This document shows positions 9,247-16,233 of a stretch of 64,000 nucleotides of DNA, piece after piece. The DNA is taken from NCBI RefSeq assembly GCF_023516505.1, contig NZ_JAMGBB010000001.1:1-64000 (forward strand), read 5' to 3'. Under the pieces are notes generated by a model. It had not been told where the DNA came from, ran no database searches, and was given only the letters and a program-made list of their open reading frames with translations. The position numbers and the translations under genes are program-made. Every line of letters starts with the position of its first letter. Within the stretch, counting starts at the first letter, position 1. The stretch comes from Sphingomonas brevis. Its GTDB lineage: Bacteria; Pseudomonadota; Alphaproteobacteria; Sphingomonadales; Sphingomonadaceae.

Positions 9247-10746
9247 CTAGGCGTCCTCGCGCTGGCGCAAAAGCGTATCGCTCTTCCCAGAAAATCTCGG
9301 AACGCCGGTCAGAATGCCGCTGAACTGGGTAAGTGGCTCGCCCACCCGAACGCCGAGCTTGTCGATCCGATATTCGCGGATCGACGGCTCGTGGCCGCCG
9401 GTGCGCTTCTTCAACACGGATATGGCACGGCGCAGTTGGCCGGCCGCCTCGAAATAGCGCAGCAGAAGGACGTTGTCCGAAAGATAGGTGAGGTCGATCG
9501 GGGACTGCATCTGGCCGACCAGCCCATGCTGGGCGAGGACCAGGATCGTCAGCACGCCCTGTTGGTTGAGGTAGGTCAGCATCTCATGCATCTGGAGCAG
9601 CAGGAACTGCTCCTCGGGCATGGCATTTTGGTAGCCTGACAGGCTGTCGAGCACGACGATGCTGGTCCCCCGGGAGACGTGATCGCGGACCATCCCGGAC
9701 AATTCGCCTGGGCTCAGCTCTGCCGGATCGACCTGCTGGAATGTGAACTGATCTTGCCACTTGGCGAGCTCGATATGGAGCCCGCCCGCACGCTTGTAGA
9801 AGTTGCGCCGGGTTTCATCGAAGCTGATGAACAGCGCCGTCTCGCCCCGGGCCAGTCCGGCGCAGACATATTGCAGCGCCAGCGTCGACTTGCCGCAGCC
9901 TGCGGGACCCATGATTAGGGTAGCCGTGCCGCGATCGAGGCCGCCCTTCAGCAGGCTGTCGAGGTCGGGGAGGCCGCTGCTTACCGGCTTGTCATCGAGA
10001 TTAGCGACAACATGCTCGGAGGCGATTAGGCGGGGGAAAATGACCAGGCCTCCGGTGCGAATGATATAGTCGTGGAAGCCGCCGCGGAAGGCCCGCCCGC
10101 GCATCTTGTAGACGCGCAAGCGGCGGCGTTCGGCTCCATAGGCAATGGTCAGTTGCTCCAGGCGGGTGACGCCATGAACCAGGCTGTGCAAATTTGCGTC
10201 GTCCATTTCCTCGGTGAGGTCGTCGACGAAGATCGTCGTGATGCCCTTGCCGGTGAAATAATGCTTCAGCGCCAGCACTTGCCGGCGATAGCGCAGCGGG
10301 GAGCCGGCCAGCAGGCGGATATCGGACAGGCTGTCAAACACAACGCAGTCGGGCTTCAGCCGTTCGACGCAATCCATCACGAGCTTGACCGTCTCGCCCA
10401 GTTCAAGATCGGACGAATAGACAACCGACTGCTCGCGCGTGGGATCCAGGCTGAGCTCGGCCGGGACCAGTTCGTAGATCTCGATCCCATCGAGCGACCA
10501 CCCGTGGGTCGCGGCCGAAGCCAATAGCTCCTCCCGGCCCTCGGACAGGGTGACGTAGAGCGTGCTTTCGCCACGCTCTCGCGCGGCCATCAGAAACTGC
10601 AGGGCTAGCGTCGTCTTGCCCGACCCGGGCCGGCCCTCGACCAGGTGAACGCGGGCCCGGCCGTAGCCGCCGGCCAGAATGTCATCAAATGCTTCGATGC
10701 CGGTCGAAATGCCGGTCTCCGGCTTGATTGCTTTCTTCGCTGTCAT
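9247..10746 (-). CDS. KaiC-like double-domain RecA-fold ATPase
   Basis: This 499-residue protein has two KaiC/RadA-type domains in tandem. Walker A is GRPGSGKTT at 38-46 and GPAGCGKST at about 280-288. Walker B strands end in VVFDSL and VVLDSL, and an acidic pair DE follows the second P-loop domain at 310-311. Length and layout match KaiC (about 500-520 residues), but no kaiA or kaiB lies nearby. Non-cyanobacterial KaiC homologues commonly sit beside histidine kinases and are linked to stress or light signalling. Here the gene is the first of an operon with the hybrid kinase. Proposing that it modulates the kinase is inference. Confidence 0.9.
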   Translation of the reverse strand: MTAKKAIKPETGISTGIEAFDDILAGGYGRARVHLVEGRPGSGKTTLALQFLMAARERGESTLYVTLSEGREELLASAATHGWSLDGIEIYELVPAELSLDPTREQSVVYSSDLELGETVKLVMDCVERLKPDCVVFDSLSDIRLLAGSPLRYRRQVLALKHYFTGKGITTIFVDDLTEEMDDANLHSLVHGVTRLEQLTIAYGAERRRLRVYKMRGRAFRGGFHDYIIRTGGLVIFPRLIASEHVVANLDDKPVSSGLPDLDSLLKGGLDRGTATLIMGPAGCGKSTLALQYVCAGLARGETALFISFDETRRNFYKRAGGLHIELAKWQDQFTFQQVDPAELSPGELSGMVRDHVSRGTSIVVLDSLSGYQNAMPEEQFLLLQMHEMLTYLNQQGVLTILVLAQHGLVGQMQSPIDLTYLSDNVLLLRYFEAAGQLRRAISVLKKRTGGHEPSIREYRIDKLGVRVGEPLTQFSGILTGVPRFSGKSDTLLRQREDA

Positions 10747-10894: not shown

Positions 10895-11395
10895 TCAGGC
10901 GTTGGCGCGAAGCGTCGCGGCATATTCCTCGAGCTGGCCGGCAACCGTACCCCAGCCATCGTGGAAGCCCATCTGCTCATGGGTTAGGCGGTCGGCTTCG
11001 CTCTTGTGGAGCGCGACGGCCTTGTAGGCGGTTTTGCCGTTGCCATCGTCCTCGAAGGTGACGATCGCGGTCATCGGGAAGCTTTCGCAACCTTCACCTG
11101 CTTCGTTGGGGCGATAGCCCGGCCCGAGCGCGCTGGTCCATGACAGCTTCCGGTTCTCGACCACTTCGAGCACGCAGCCCGGCACGCCGTGGCCGGTGTC
11201 GAAATTGTCGGGACCGACCATGCGAATACGGAAGATGCCGCCGGGTTGAAGGTCGAGTTCGCATTCGGTGATCTGGTAGGGCCGAGGCGCGAACCATTGC
11301 TTCAGATGTTCCGGATCGGTGTAAGCCTTCCACACCAGTTCCACGGGCGCGTCGATGGTGCGCTCAAGCACCAGGTCCAGCTTGTCAGTCATCAT
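10895..11395 (-). CDS. AHSA1/SRPBCC-domain protein (module 1)
   Basis: This 166-residue START-like fold protein of the AHSA1/polyketide-cyclase group shows the family pattern: IDAPVELVWKAYTDPEHLKQWF near the N-terminus, GGIFRIRM in the middle, and a C-terminal GWGTVAGQLEEYA helix. The start overlaps the ArsR stop as TGATG. Two ATGs are adjacent (11395 and 11392), and AAGGGAGA spacing slightly favours the second. ArsR-AHSA1 pairs are common in proteobacteria; the SRPBCC pocket binds a hydrophobic ligand or carries out an unknown detoxification. The ligand is not predictable here. Confidence 0.88.
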   Translation of the reverse strand: MMTDKLDLVLERTIDAPVELVWKAYTDPEHLKQWFAPRPYQITECELDLQPGGIFRIRMVGPDNFDTGHGVPGCVLEVVENRKLSWTSALGPGYRPNEAGEGCESFPMTAIVTFEDDGNGKTAYKAVALHKSEADRLTHEQMGFHDGWGTVAGQLEEYAATLRANA

Positions 11396-11733
11396 CAATC
11401 TCCCTTGTCCTTCAATTCCATCACATATTCTTCGAAGCGGTCGTGGCGCTTTTCCCATTCGGAGCGGCGGTCGACCAACCATTGCTCGGCCGCGGCCAGC
11501 ACTCCGGGCTGAAGCCGGCAGGTGCGAACCCGGCCCTTCTTCTCGCTGCGGATCAGCCCGCTGTCCTCGAGCGCCTTCAGGTGCTGCATCACCGCCGGCA
11601 GGCTCATCTCGAACGGCTGGGCCAATTCGCTGACCGACGCCGGGCCCCGGGCCAGCCGCGACAGCATGCCGCGGCGGGCGGGATCGGCGAGCGCCTGAAA
11701 AGCACGGTCGAGGCGAGTCAAATCCTTAAGCAT
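11395..11733 (-). CDS. ArsR-family winged-helix repressor (module 1)
   Basis: The 112-residue regulator has the ArsR fold: DPARRGMLSRLARGPASVSELA, the recognition helix MSLPAVMQHLKALEDSGLI, and a beta-wing RSEKKGRVRTCRL. No metal-binding CxC motif is seen, so it likely responds to something other than a thiophilic metal. It is the first gene of the pair with the AHSA1 gene. A palindrome spans its own start codon and a second similar one lies 47 bases upstream, which points to autorepression (inference). Confidence 0.92.
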   Translation of the reverse strand: MLKDLTRLDRAFQALADPARRGMLSRLARGPASVSELAQPFEMSLPAVMQHLKALEDSGLIRSEKKGRVRTCRLQPGVLAAAEQWLVDRRSEWEKRHDRFEEYVMELKDKGD

Positions 11734-11741
11734 GTGCTTAA
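11726..11741. promoter_or_regulatory. Putative ArsR-1 operator O1 on the start codon
   Basis: TTAAGC-ATGT-GCTTAA: perfect 6-base arms. The regulator's start codon (complement of 11731-11733) lies inside the site. Binding here would block translation initiation or early elongation of the autoregulated transcript. Confidence 0.6.
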
Positions 11742-11772
11742 CTATCGAGTCGCGATGCAGGTGTCAAGACAG

Positions 11773-11788
11773 TTAAGCCATTGCCTAA
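11773..11788. promoter_or_regulatory. Putative ArsR-1 operator O2
   Basis: TTAAGC-CATT-GCCTAA repeats the O1 pattern with one arm mismatch. It lies 47 bases (centre to centre) upstream of O1, between the ArsR start and the TIR gene stop, so the pair would bracket the promoter. Confidence 0.55.
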
Positions 11789-12502
11789 CTATTGTTCGGG
11801 ATGGGGGATTGCCGGCGGATCGGGTGGAGTGACGTCGATCTTCACATCCGCCTTCTCGCGCACTCGGTCGGAATCCGCTCCACTTATTGCGATCGCGCCG
11901 AGGGTGATGATCAGCGCAAGCAGCAGGATCCAGCGGCCGAGCGACTTCCAGTTGATCGCCTCGATTGCAGCGACCGTGGCCGGTTGGGGAGCCGGGGACG
12001 GCGCGACCGTGGCCGGCGGAGCGCCGGCCGGATCGATCTGCAACCTGAGGTCACGAACGAGGCGGGACAGCTGGGAATGGAAGTCGCGGCCGCTGTCGAC
12101 CGGCAAGGCGTTGCGGCGGAGCAGCGGCCACAGGCTCTCGGGAAGCTGGTCGCGACCCGGCAGGGCTGCGCCATCGATCAGCAAGGGGACGACCGGGATG
12201 CCACGTTCCAGCGCGGTCTCGACCTCGATCCTGACCCAGTCGTCGGGGTCCATGATCCGGGGCAGCTGGCCCTTTCGCTGCGAGCGCCAGCCCTTGCCGA
12301 TCACCACCAGCAACGCGCCGCAATCGGCCAGAATCTCCTGAAGATGGTCGTGAAAATCGACTCCGGCAGGCATGGAATCAATGTCCATGAAAACGCGGCC
12401 GGAGCCGAATTCCTGGATTAGCCGGTCGAAGATGCGGCCGGTCACCCCGGCGCTGTCCTCGCGGCGGTATGAGAGGATGATGGTCGACTGCGCCCCTGCC
12501 AT
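11789..12502 (-). CDS. TIR-domain protein with C-terminal membrane anchor
   Basis: The 237-residue protein begins with a TIR_2-type domain (about 6-150): [10 protein letters not shown], a [14 protein letters not shown] box, LLVVIGKGW, and [10 protein letters not shown], where E93 sits at the position of the catalytic Glu of TIR NADases. A Pro/Ala-rich linker follows. One hydrophobic helix (about 187-206) comes next, with a short charged, Pro-rich tail. The start is the ATG at 12502; a GTG two codons earlier is also possible. TIR proteins act in NAD+ cleavage or as scaffolds, often in phage defence, but no defence partner gene is nearby. NADase activity is inferred, not shown. Confidence 0.85.
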
Positions 12503-12583
12503 CGGCACCGACTAGCAAGCTTTCGGATGACCGAGAAGCGTGCCGAGGTTTACAGTTCGGGCGAGCCTCACTATCGGCCCGAC

Positions 12584-14149
12584 ATGGAGCCCCAAGAAAC
12601 CATCCTCATCGTCGACTTTGGCAGCCAGGTGACGCAGTTGATCGCGCGCCGGGTGCGCGAAGCCGGCGTCTACTGCGAGATTGCGCCGTTCAGCCTGGCA
12701 TCGGCCGCCTGCGACCGGTTAAAGCCCAAGGGCATCATCCTGTCGGGCTCGCCCGCCGGTGTCCCCGAAGAGGGTAGCCCGCGCGCCCCGCAGGAGCTCT
12801 TCGACAAGGGCGTCCCGATCCTCGGCATCTGCTACGGCCAGCAGGTGATGAGCCACCAGCTTGGCGGGCGGGTCGAGCCCGGCAACCAGGGCGAATGGGA
12901 CGGCGAGTTCGGCCGCGCCTTCATCACCATCACCGAGGAATGTGCGCTGTTCGACGGCCTGTGGGCGGTCGGGGAGCGGCACCAGGTGTGGATGAGCCAC
13001 GGCGACAAGGTCACCGCCTTCGCGCCGGGCTTCCGGATTGTCGCGGTGAGCGACGGTGCGCCCTTCGCGGTAATCGCCGATGAGGAGCGCCAGTTCTACG
13101 GCACCCAATTCCACCCCGAGGTGGCGCACACGCCAGACGGGGCCCGGCTGATCGCCAATTTCGTCCACCGCGTGTGCGGCCTCGCCGGCGACTGGACCAT
13201 GGCCGCCTATCGCGAGACCAAGGTCGCTGAAATTCGCGATCAAGTCGGTGCTGGCAAGGTGATCTGCGGCCTTTCCGGCGGCGTCGACAGCTCGGTCGCG
13301 GCCATCCTGATCCACGAGGCGATCGGCGACCAGCTGACCTGCGTGTTCGTCGATCACGGCCTGCTACGCCTCAATGAACGCCAGCAGGTCGAGACGCTGT
13401 TCCGCGATCATTACAACATCCCCCTCGTGGTGGTGGACGCCGAGGAACGGTTCATGGCCGGCCTCGCCGGGGTCACTGACCCCGAAGCCAAGCGCAAGTT
13501 CATCGGCGCCGAGTTCATTGCCGTGTTCGAGGAAGAAGCGAATAAGCTGGGAGGGGCCGACTTCCTGGCCCAGGGCACGCTTTACCCCGACGTGATTGAG
13601 AGCGTCAGTTTCACCGGCGGGCCGTCGGTGACGATTAAGAGCCATCACAATGTCGGCGGGCTCCCCGACCGGATGAACATGAAGCTGGTCGAGCCCTTGC
13701 GCGAGCTGTTCAAGGACGAGGTCCGCGATCTCGGCCGCGAGCTGGGGCTCAACGACCAGTTCGTCGGGCGCCACCCTTTCCCGGGACCGGGCCTCGCCAT
13801 CCGTATCCCGGGCGAAGTCACCAAGGACCGTTGCGACATTCTTCGCAAGGCCGATGCGGTTTACCTCGAAGAAATCCGGAGCGCCGGTCTTTACGATACG
13901 ATTTGGCAGGCGTTCGCCGTGCTGCTTCCAGTGCGGACGGTCGGAGTAATGGGCGATTACCGCACCTATGACAGCGTCTGCGCACTGCGCGCCGTCACCA
14001 GCGTCGACGGCATGACCGCCGACATCTACCCGTTCGACGCCGCCTTCCTTTCGCGCTGCGCGACGCGGATCATCAACGAGGTCAAAGGGATCAACCGCGT
14101 GGTCTACGACTATACGTCGAAACCGCCCGGCACGATCGAGTGGGAGTGA
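12584..14149 (+). CDS. guaA: GMP synthase (glutamine-hydrolysing)
   Basis: This enzyme converts XMP to GMP using ATP and glutamine in purine synthesis. The N-terminal class I amidotransferase has the nucleophile Cys in GICYGQQ and the His-Glu pair in FHPEVAHT. The ATP-pyrophosphatase P-loop is GLSGGVDSS. The C-terminal dimerisation domain ends in KPPGTIEWE, as in other GuaA proteins. From the ATG at 12584 the length is 521 residues, the usual size. An in-frame ATG at 12527 would add 19 residues that look unrelated to the family. A large palindrome covers the stop codon. Confidence 0.97.
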
Positions 14150-14188
14150 TGAAATCGGGCAGTGTGGGGTACTGTCCGATTTCATCAC
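14146..14188. repeat. Long palindrome covering the guaA stop codon
   Basis: GTGATGAAATCGGGCAGT (14146-14163) pairs with 14171-14188 over 18 positions, with one G-U wobble and a 7-base loop. No T-run follows on either side, so it is not a standard intrinsic terminator. It could be a REP-like extragenic palindrome or a 3'-end stabiliser. Confidence 0.7.
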
Positions 14189-14241
14189 TGGCCGGATTGA
14201 CCGTGCGGGACACGATCAACCGAGGCTCACTCAATCCTTAT

Positions 14242-14775
14242 TCAAGCCTGAAGGCGCCGCTCATATTCGGCCTTGAGCGCGACCCAATTGTCCCAGAAGG
14301 GCGGGGGCTCTTCGCCACCGAGGCGGGCGGCGAGCACATCGAAATGAGCGTGCCATCCGGCGCTTACCTTCAGTATCGTCGTACGATCGGGCAATCGGCG
14401 ATGGGTCAGGGTAAGGCGCACCATGTCGCCGACCGGTTCCAGGTCGAACGTAACCTCGCCGGCGTTCCCGAAGGTGAATCCCAGCCGGTGGGGAGGTTCG
14501 AGCTCGGTGATTTCGCTTTGCATCTCGTGCCGGCCGTCGAGGCCGTCAGGCGGCGTGCCGGGATTGTCCATTAGTTCATTGTTGCGCCAGACCAGCTCGA
14601 CCGGCGCGCCGACGCGCATTTCCATCGTACCCGCGGCCAGCCATTGGCGGCGAAGATCGCTTTCGGTGAGATAGGCCCAGACCCGGTCGATGGAGCCGGG
14701 CAGCAGCCGCTCGATAGTCAATGTGGCGGGCGCGCTCAGCACGCCATATTCCTGGGAAGTTGCCAGTTCGGTCAT
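14242..14775 (-). CDS. AHSA1/SRPBCC-domain protein (module 2)
   Basis: This 177-residue START-like protein shows LTIERLLPGSIDRVWAYLTE, LRRQWLAAG, VELVWRNNEL and a C-terminal GWHAHFDVLAARL helix, typical of AHSA1 homologues. The start was chosen by the ribosome site: AAGGAG sits one base from the ATG at 14781 but seven bases from the ATG at 14775, so the latter is preferred. It begins 2 bases after the stop of its ArsR partner. It is only distantly similar to the module 1 protein, so the two modules are old paralogs or independent acquisitions. Confidence 0.87.
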   Translation of the reverse strand: MTELATSQEYGVLSAPATLTIERLLPGSIDRVWAYLTESDLRRQWLAAGTMEMRVGAPVELVWRNNELMDNPGTPPDGLDGRHEMQSEITELEPPHRLGFTFGNAGEVTFDLEPVGDMVRLTLTHRRLPDRTTILKVSAGWHAHFDVLAARLGGEEPPPFWDNWVALKAEYERRLQA

Positions 14776-14777
14776 CG

Positions 14778-15152
14778 TCATTCTCCTTGTGGGGGTCGGT
14801 TCTTTCGGTTGGCCGTCTTTCGGGCGTCGTCCTCGCGCAACAGCTGCTCGAGGGTATCGAGGCGGCCGGTCCAGAAGCGCTCGTAATGGCTGAGCCACTG
14901 GTCCGCGCTGGCCAGCGGGGCAGCCTCGAGCCGGCAGATATGGGTGCGCCCGCGCACCTCGCGCCGAACCAGGCCCGCGTCCTCAAGCACCTTCACATGC
15001 TTGGAGGCACCGGCGAAGCTCATCGCAAACGGTTCGGCCAGCTCTCCGATCGATTTCTCGCCAAGCGCCAGCCTTGCCAGTATGCCGCGACGCGTGGCGT
15101 CGCCGAGAGCACGGAAGATTACATCCAGACGGGGCGAATCATTATCAACCAT
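14778..15152 (-). CDS. ArsR-family winged-helix repressor (module 2)
   Basis: The 124-residue regulator follows the ArsR pattern: FRALGDATRRGILARLALGEKSI, the recognition helix FAGASKHVKVLEDAGLV, and wing RREVRGRTHICRL. The start is taken as the ATG at 15152; a TTG further upstream at 15188 is open but lies within an operator-like palindrome. Like module 1 it has a palindrome exactly on the start codon and another about 40 bases upstream, but with different arms (TCAACC instead of TTAAGC), implying a distinct DNA specificity. Confidence 0.9.
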   Translation of the reverse strand: MVDNDSPRLDVIFRALGDATRRGILARLALGEKSIGELAEPFAMSFAGASKHVKVLEDAGLVRREVRGRTHICRLEAAPLASADQWLSHYERFWTGRLDTLEQLLREDDARKTANRKNRPPQGE

Positions 15153-15160
15153 GTGGTTGA
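15145..15160. promoter_or_regulatory. Putative ArsR-2 operator O1 on the start codon
   Basis: TCAACC-ATGT-GGTTGA: perfect 6-base arms with the same 4-base centre as in module 1, placed at the same offset to the start codon (complement of 15150-15152). Confidence 0.6.
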
Positions 15161-15184
15161 ATATGGATATGTCAGATTTGATTG

Positions 15185-15200
15185 TCAACTATTTGGTTTA
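15185..15200. promoter_or_regulatory. Putative ArsR-2 operator O2
   Basis: TCAACT-ATTT-GGTTTA keeps the arm pattern of O1 with a mismatch, 40 bases upstream centre to centre. Confidence 0.5.
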
Positions 15201-15228
15201 ATAAAGCCGCTGGGCGGACGCAGCTTTG

Positions 15229-16233
15229 CTAGGCGGCCTTGGGCAGGTGGATACGGTGGCGCGTTCCGCCCTCGCCGGTTTCCACTTCGTAGCGGGCGCG
15301 GAGTTGCTTGGTGAAAGTATCGACCAGCCGTGTGCCAAGCCCGGTGCCGCGGGAGCGACTATTTCCCTGCATGCCGACGCCATTGTCGGCAATCTCCAGC
15401 AACATGCCGCCGTTCGATCGGCCCAAGAACACGCGGATCTCGCCCTGGCGATCGTCGGGAAAGGCATGTTTCAACGCGTTGGTGACGAGCTCGTTGACCA
15501 GGATCGACATGGCGATCGCCTGCTCGGCCCCAACGGCGATATCGTCGATATGGCATTCGACGCTTACCCCGGGGCGAGTCAGGCCCTGGCGGATCTGTGT
15601 GCAGAGTTCCCCAAGGTGATGGGTAACGCGCACCTGCTCTAGGCTTTCGCTGTTGAGCGCCAACTGCTTGGAGGCAAGCGCGATGGCGTTGATTCGGTCC
15701 GCAACCTGGTTGAGCGCTTCCTTGACCGAGGGGTCGGCGCGGCGGGCCTGGGCCTGAACCAAGGCCAGCACCGTCTGATAATTGTTGCTGGTGCGATGAT
15801 CGATTTCCGCAAGCGCCTGATGGAGCAAGTCGATCTGAACTTCGCGCCGGGCCCAGGCCCGATCCACCTCGCGCTGGTAGAGCCAGACGATGAGCAAAAT
15901 GAACAATTGCGAGAATGTCGAGACGAGAAAGCTCTCGAAATATTGCTGGCTGCGCAGCGCATAGGTGACCGGATCGACGACAAAGTACCATGCTAGCAAC
16001 TGGCCGCACACCAAAGTCAGTAGCCCGCTGCGCCAGCCGGCCAGCACCGTGGCCCCGACCATCGCGACGTAAACCAAGGCGAACGGTGCGCGGTCGCCAA
16101 TGATCGGGTGCAGCAGCACGCGAACAAGCGTCATCAAAACGGGTATGCCAATTCCGACCGCAATCTCGACGATCAGCGGCGGAACCCTGTCTGCAAAACG
16201 CTCCGGCAGCCTGGATCGCAAGATCCGCTTCAT
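15229..16233 (-). CDS. Membrane histidine kinase, DUF4118 plus HisKA_2
   Basis: The 334-residue sensor has four hydrophobic segments in the first 130 residues (DUF4118/KdpD-like membrane block), then a HisKA_2-type phosphoacceptor helix (AEIDHRTSNNYQTVLALV) and an ATPase domain (NELVTNALKHAFP, DNGVGM, GTGLGTRLV). Kinases of this group often feed single-domain or PhyR-type regulators in alphaproteobacteria. No partner regulator is adjacent. The start is the ATG at 16233; the open frame extends to a TTG at 16311, but that part carries no hydrophobic or family signal. Confidence 0.88.
   Translation of the reverse strand: MKRILRSRLPERFADRVPPLIVEIAVGIGIPVLMTLVRVLLHPIIGDRAPFALVYVAMVGATVLAGWRSGLLTLVCGQLLAWYFVVDPVTYALRSQQYFESFLVSTFSQLFILLIVWLYQREVDRAWARREVQIDLLHQALAEIDHRTSNNYQTVLALVQAQARRADPSVKEALNQVADRINAIALASKQLALNSESLEQVRVTHHLGELCTQIRQGLTRPGVSVECHIDDIAVGAEQAIAMSILVNELVTNALKHAFPDDRQGEIRVFLGRSNGGMLLEIADNGVGMQGNSRSRGTGLGTRLVDTFTKQLRARYEVETGEGGTRHRIHLPKAA

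Follow-up and report, generated by a model that had tools for sequence, protein, structure and literature searches.

ArsR proteins are abundant, and many are without a known target. Rv2034 of Mycobacterium tuberculosis is described (PMC3338718) as an autorepressing ArsR protein encoded in the Rv2034-Rv2035-Rv2036 operon with a Polyketide_cyc2 (SRPBCC-type) gene. That report places the palindrome CCGTAAGT-N4-ACTTACGG at its own promoter, with a coding-strand footprint from −30 to +3. We analyzed a 64,000-nucleotide stretch of Sphingomonas brevis (the window; positions 1 to 64,000 of contig NZ_JAMGBB010000001.1, assembly GCF_023516505.1) that contains two ArsR-AHSA1 modules. Judged from sequence alone, both modules share with Rv2034 a putative ArsR autorepressor, an SRPBCC-type operon partner and a palindrome that adjoins or covers the start codon in the regulator's promoter. 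The Rv2034 palindrome, by its published numbering, is apparently situated immediately 5′ of the start codon, whereas those of the window are centered on the ATG, and the arms differ. Rv2034 can be regarded as a characterized analogue of the mechanism proposed for the two modules.

SdpR-type regulators (NCBIfam NF033789) are also non-metal ArsR autorepressors; the two window regulators, ArsR1 and ArsR2, match this model, but with 59.1 and 53.0 bits they score below its cut-off of 100. NolR is a further ArsR-family regulator, with an operator that differs from those of the window; it is not known to have an AHSA1 operon. The cI gene of phage lambda, when transcribed from PRM, likewise yields a leaderless mRNA for a repressor and has operators in its promoter region, although the protein is unrelated and the operators are not known to be centered on the start codon. 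In the LacI family, the co-evolution of regulators and operators has been studied, including how residues relate to binding motifs across the family (PMC4052901); this is a different protein family, and the likeness lies in those residue-motif links. Brucella ArsR6 represses itself, and that report (PMC8509827) contains no mention of palindrom, AHSA1 or SRPBCC. Neither start-codon-centered placement nor an ArsR-AHSA1 code was present in titles or abstracts among the matches listed from the open-licence literature.

Palindromes centered on the ArsR start codons

We consider it likely that both modules are ArsR-AHSA1 operons that repress themselves, the regulator of each binding, as a dimer, a palindrome centered on its own start codon, and that the two paralogues read different arms. 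Geometry, conservation and covariation were taken from the sequence; from there we infer leaderless transcription, binding, direct contacts, repression and release. ArsR1 (112 residues; 11395–11733, minus strand) and ArsR2 (14778–15152, minus strand) are winged-helix regulators of the ArsR/SmtB family (Pfam HTH_20 with 52.6 and 41.9 bits, where the gathering score is 27, or 4.6e-14 and 9.6e-11; HTH_5 for ArsR1, 1.4e-12), and 3f6o is the top solved structure by sequence score for each. An overlapping AHSA1 gene lies directly 3′ of both, which defines them as ArsR-AHSA1 operons: the ATG of AHSA1/SRPBCC protein 1 (10895–11395, minus strand; Pfam AHSA1, 9.1e-27) has one base in common with the ArsR1 stop codon, and AHSA1/SRPBCC protein 2 (14242–14781, minus strand; 5.4e-18) overlaps the end of ArsR2 by four bases.

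The proposed ArsR1 start-codon operator, TTAAGC-N4-GCTTAA (TTAAGCATGTGCTTAA), occupies 11726–11741 with its axis between 11733 and 11734, and the proposed ArsR2 operator, TCAACC-N4-GGTTGA (TCAACCATGTGGTTGA), occupies 15145–15160 with its axis between 15152 and 15153. The start codons on the minus strand are at 11733–11731 and 15152–15150, so that both dyad axes fall exactly between bases −1 and +1 of the ATG; the coding-strand sequence at the start site is TTAAGCAC/ATGCTTAA for ArsR1 and TCAACCAC/ATGGTTGA for ArsR2. Each operator has a second, upstream copy. That of ArsR1 (TTAAGCCATTGCCTAA, 11773–11788) has one mismatch and is located just upstream of a −35-like box, and that of ArsR2 (15185–15200) is a variant with two arm mismatches whose right arm includes the start of the −35 box. 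The axis-to-axis spacing is 47 bp for ArsR1 and 40 bp for ArsR2. The initial annotation had placed four palindromes here, including the one-mismatch copy, and had proposed an equal geometry for the two modules; all four are present at those positions, and the common geometry was confirmed.

The window contains 38 perfect 6-N4-6 palindromes, and the only two centered on the ATG of an open reading frame of at least 80 codons are those of ArsR1 and ArsR2. A genome-wide search for both 16-mers, which the initial annotation had suggested, returned one exact site for TTAAGCN4GCTTAA (four sites with at most one mismatch, two of them the pair reported here; six for a control pattern) and two for TCAACCN4GGTTGA (13 sites with at most one mismatch; one for the control). 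The second exact TCAACCN4GGTTGA copy is inside a 124-residue open reading frame elsewhere in the genome. A genome-wide regulon marked by these 16-mers was considered and rejected, since there are few extra sites and the sole other exact one lies inside a reading frame. The 16-mers do not mark a regulon by themselves; the markers are position, second copy and conservation.

The recurrence of this arrangement was assessed in a training set of 193 distinct ArsR proteins, compiled from 298 genomes of the family, a public-genome scan and fetched stretches, of which 192 were anchored (one was dropped for a gap at the anchor column); its rows over-represent ArsR2 relatives because a close-relative search was a source. 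A dyad was called start-centered when at least six of eight pairs at offsets 2–9 from the axis were complementary and the axis coincided with base 1 of a start codon in frame. Such a dyad was found in 70/192 training genes, all 70 with ATG (43/192 at a threshold of seven of eight). Moving the axis 1–20 bases in either direction gave only 0–16 loci per offset, and the maximum of 16, at offset −4, probably reflects TTG triplets within the upstream copy that were counted as candidate starts. For the hold-out set, 134 additional loci were taken from families of the same class and phylum other than the home family (54 new loci plus the first 40 further unfetched places per list outside the home family), with 140 ArsR proteins absent from the training set. 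Here the dyad was start-centered in 55/140 genes (54 ATG, one GTG), with 0–10 at the other offsets from −20 to +20. An AHSA1 reading frame lies downstream in 53 of the 70 training and 46 of the 55 hold-out start-centered loci.

The search for the upstream copy used the arms of the locus itself as the query and compared the match with 100 shuffles (p≤0.02); one of the 125 start-centered loci was dropped because its upstream sequence was too short. A second copy is present between −37 and −41 in all 43 ArsR2-like start-centered loci, and in most of them its right arm runs into the TTGAC of the −35 box. Among the other start-centered loci, 30/81 have a second copy, which in 24 cases lies between −47 and −51; in the TLTGM class it was detected in one of 11. 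The two spacing groups across loci indicate that the window modules stand for two spacing classes.

Related layouts were observed at other loci. In Actinobacteria (L046, L048, L050 and L056), the downstream copy of a TTCAACC palindrome precedes the start codon, with a right arm that extends into a GAGGA sequence, where operator and Shine-Dalgarno sequence may share bases. Regulators of the SAPA[VI]SQH type (L167, L176, L198 and L200) have TTGACTTAA-TTAAG dyads with a −35-like box as part of a dyad arm.

Recognition-helix residues and operator arms

The recognition helix is SLPAVMQHLKAL in ArsR1, with P46, A47 and Q50, and SFAGASKHVKVL in ArsR2, with A46, G47 and K50 (ArsR1 numbering throughout). 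The place of these three residues on the helix was taken from alignment to the helix-turn-helix family alone, and half-site positions are counted outward from the axis, with the A of ATG as position 1. The window operators, GCTTAA and GGTTGA, differ at exactly positions 4 and 7. The two regulators differ at residues 50 (Q/K) and 46 (P/A), with further differences in the helix, and the arm differences thus appear to match residue differences in the recognition helix.

A code was fixed before the hold-out set was fetched. It assigns residue 50 to position 4 (K or R with G, Q with C), residue 47 to position 5 (A or G with T, S or T with C) and residue 46 to position 7 (P with A, A or Q with G, T with C). 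In the training set, K50 goes with G in 114/114 half-site bases and Q50 with C in 16/16, and R50 goes with G in six and with A in four. The code predicted 100/106 hold-out half-site bases for residue 50, 103/110 for residue 47 and 102/106 for residue 46; four bases at residue 50 (L, G) and four at residue 46 (S) had no prediction. Guessing the commonest base would be correct for 70, 67 and 94 of 110 at positions 4, 5 and 7, respectively, and because of the high baseline at position 7 the test rests mostly on positions 4 and 5. When each helix heptamer (residues 44–50) unseen in training was counted once, the code was correct in 17/18, 20/20 and 17/18 cases for residues 50, 47 and 46 (Fisher test, 4e-5 for residue 50 and 8e-6 for residue 47); all 18 unseen heptamers tested for residue 46 have P46, which leaves the heptamer test with little to say there.

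The predicted code is supported for the start-centered architecture and for TTCAACC-type Actinobacteria rows only, the latter being within the training material. Its extension to dyads away from the start codon was tried and discarded, and many of those dyads look like chance occurrences or differently phased ones. A role for Gln56 has reportedly been assigned in the DNA complex of NolR. Chain position 56 of that structure (PDB 4omy) would fall one residue before residue 46 if the alignment is ungapped. For Rv2034, whose arms have C at position 4, T at position 5 and A at position 7, the code would predict Q50, A or G at residue 47, and P46.

Promoters, proposed repression and alternative explanations

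ArsR2 is preceded by a −35 box TTGACA (15183–15188, minus strand) and, after a 17 bp spacer, a −10 box CATATT (15160–15165, minus strand), together matching the consensus at 10/12 bases; seven bases separate the −10 box from the ATG. This was the sole promoter-like site in a consensus scan of 11300–15300, for which the shuffled region averages 0.6. ArsR1 has a −35-like TTGACA (11762–11767, minus strand) 34 bp before its ATG and a weak −10 box, either TAGTTA (11739–11744, 17 bp spacer) or GATAGT (11741–11746, 15 bp spacer). Among start-centered loci, the top TTGACA-like match falls at −37 to −33 in 56/70 of the training set (a count that hinges on tie-breaking, becoming 64/70 if ties are resolved in favor of the site closest to −35) and in 33/55 of the hold-out set. 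Training start-centered loci have A at −12 in 56/70 and T at −8 in 67/70, which fits a −10 box there. A Shine-Dalgarno-like 4-mer precedes the candidate start in 4/125 start-centered loci compared with 48/203 other loci (of the 207 other loci, four that lacked a candidate start were dropped). The −35-like box about 35 bp before the ATG and the scarcity of Shine-Dalgarno sequences suggest that start-centered ArsR mRNAs are leaderless, and that transcription start and start codon probably coincide. Leaderless mRNAs are common in another alphaproteobacterium, Caulobacter crescentus, for which PMC4117421 reports 375.

If the mRNAs are leaderless, an operator on the start codon is also an operator on −10/+1. 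An ArsR dimer would bind the palindrome whose axis is both the transcription start and the A of the ATG, and would span the −10 region, +1 and the start codon at once, while a second dimer on the upstream copy would cover or abut the −35 box. RNA polymerase would be excluded, and ArsR would keep both itself and AHSA1 low until a signal releases it, in which the AHSA1 partner may take part. The helix would read position 4 of the half-site with residue 50, position 5 with residue 47 and position 7 with residue 46, such that ArsR1 (P46, A47, Q50) would read GCTTAA and ArsR2 (A46, G47, K50) would read GGTTGA. The initial annotation had proposed that the repressors block both promoter and start codon. 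Promoter coverage is retained in this mechanism, but a separate block of translation is unneeded, since the promoters look leaderless and coverage of −10/+1 takes in the ATG as a by-product.

The broader proposal, which we hold to be reasonably probable, is that ArsR-AHSA1 repressors share a simple, transferable three-residue code, that a large subset has its dyad on a leaderless start codon, and that paralogues diverge by one or two helix residues and one or two bases per arm, with their N-termini rewritten as well. A number of observations weigh against these readings. The start-centered dyad is absent in 122/192 training and 85/140 hold-out ArsR genes, some of the 122 having a dyad elsewhere near the start. 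AHSA1 also follows such genes (75/122 in training, 61/85 in the hold-out), and since it is frequent in both groups the partner does not distinguish the start-centered class. The ArsR1 promoter, with its poor −10 box, was missed by the consensus scan of 11300–15300, and the top −35 match is outside −37 to −33 in 22/55 hold-out start-centered loci. R50 sometimes pairs with A (4/10 in training, 3/14 in the hold-out), and dyads off the start codon fit the code poorly (60/92, 56/102 and 63/98 for residues 50, 47 and 46). When the left half is used alone, residue 46 drops to second for position 7, and residues 48 and 49 have raw associations with this position (1.15 and 1.17 bits) near that of residue 46 (1.28 bits). 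Independent co-changes are few (two for residue 50, four for residue 47 and two for residue 46) and the rows are related; the co-change p values of 4.9e-4, 4.3e-5 and 9.7e-4, respectively, are uncorrected for 102 columns.

The scarcity of independent switches on the tree, together with a tree-ordered list in which most arm classes go with the clade, would be expected if helix and arms travel with clades and no residue contacts a base directly. We regard such phylogenetic inertia as unlikely. In a co-change tree of 125 start-centered proteins, built with columns 44–50 left out, the top column out of 102 is residue 50 for position 4, residue 47 for position 5 and residue 46 for position 7 when both halves are used, and the families of the hold-out were predicted. 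Moreover, four natural heptamer pairs are unlike solely at residue 50 (SLPAVMQ/SLPAVMK, ALPSFMQ/ALPSFMK, ALPSFLQ/ALPSFLK and ALPSLMQ/ALPSLMK; 1–9 loci per heptamer), and within positions 3–8 of the majority half-site only position 4 changes, between C and G. These four pairs are the clearest evidence on whether contact is direct. In a further pair, SQPTISK/SQPAISK (one locus each), position 5 changes between C and T, and position 9 also changes.

An axis exactly at the ATG and a near absence of Shine-Dalgarno signal could also be accounted for by a dyad that acts in RNA, as a hairpin around the start codon that bars ribosomes. This is very improbable: in a leaderless mRNA, if it is one, the left arm would be untranscribed and the hairpin could not form, and both the second copy around or upstream of the −35 box (43/43 ArsR2-like start-centered loci) and the link of the arms to recognition-helix residues indicate DNA binding. 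It is also hardly to be expected that the right half is kept merely as N-terminal coding sequence while the left half arises by chance or from overlap with the −10 box; positions 4–9 of the right half are indeed codons 2 and 3, and the left half does overlap the −10 region, but the non-coding left half fits the code equally well alone (53/53, 51/55 and 50/53 for residues 50, 47 and 46), and symmetry is maximal at offset 0 in both the training and hold-out sets. Metal-sensing ArsR/SmtB repressors carry metal ligands, for example two paired cysteines in the third helix. Both window regulators exceed the cut-off of 55 for NCBIfam HTH_metalloreg, scoring 77 and 71.2, but the aligned third helix, the only helix considered, has no cysteine in either (SELAQPF and GELAEPF), and the operon partner is AHSA1; ordinary metal sensors are extremely unlikely here. 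The reading as self-repressing ArsR-AHSA1 operons with start-centered operators is preferred.

Paralogue divergence, neighboring genes and significance

Nine genomes among the fetched loci have two to four start-centered operators. None of the 16 within-genome operator pairs has the same positions 4–8, a comparison restricted to fetched loci and without a fair null, as the all-pairs figure (20.7% alike) takes in orthologues. One same-genus genome has three paralogues with three different arms (L068, L138 and L174); roughly 6 kb separates L068 from L138, and their order and relative strand match those of the window modules. The initial annotation had inferred paralogous repressors that diverged in DNA specificity, which would be contradicted by arms that vary freely among orthologues. 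The sequences support the divergence: arms are conserved among close relatives, differ in all of the within-genome pairs and track recognition-helix residues.

A TIR_2-domain protein (11789–12508) is encoded between guaA and ArsR1, and its end abuts the upstream ArsR1 palindrome. In two genomes of the same genus (L068 and L069), the neighbor of ArsR1 is guaA, and no match to the TIR_2 protein turned up next to ArsR1; in the genome of L068, guaA adjoins ArsR1 with no TIR match between them. Downstream of module 1 is a KaiC-like ATPase in tandem (two KaiC stretches, 9247–10746), and an HWE/HisKA_2 histidine kinase (15229–16233), encoded on the strand of ArsR2, lies upstream of it. A third ArsR-like helix, more distant and with a dyad nearby, is found at 98543–98725 of the same genome (L003, 1501–1683), within a 467-residue open frame that is perhaps a fusion.

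A three-residue code, if true, would pair many ArsR proteins with their operators. The paralogues would provide a natural set of regulators in which single-residue differences change how DNA is read, so that how sister repressors avoid cross-talk becomes directly testable. With the start-centered placement, operator, promoter and coding sequence would be compelled to use the same bases, and one stretch of DNA would serve as operator, transcription start, start codon and N-terminal codons of the regulator.

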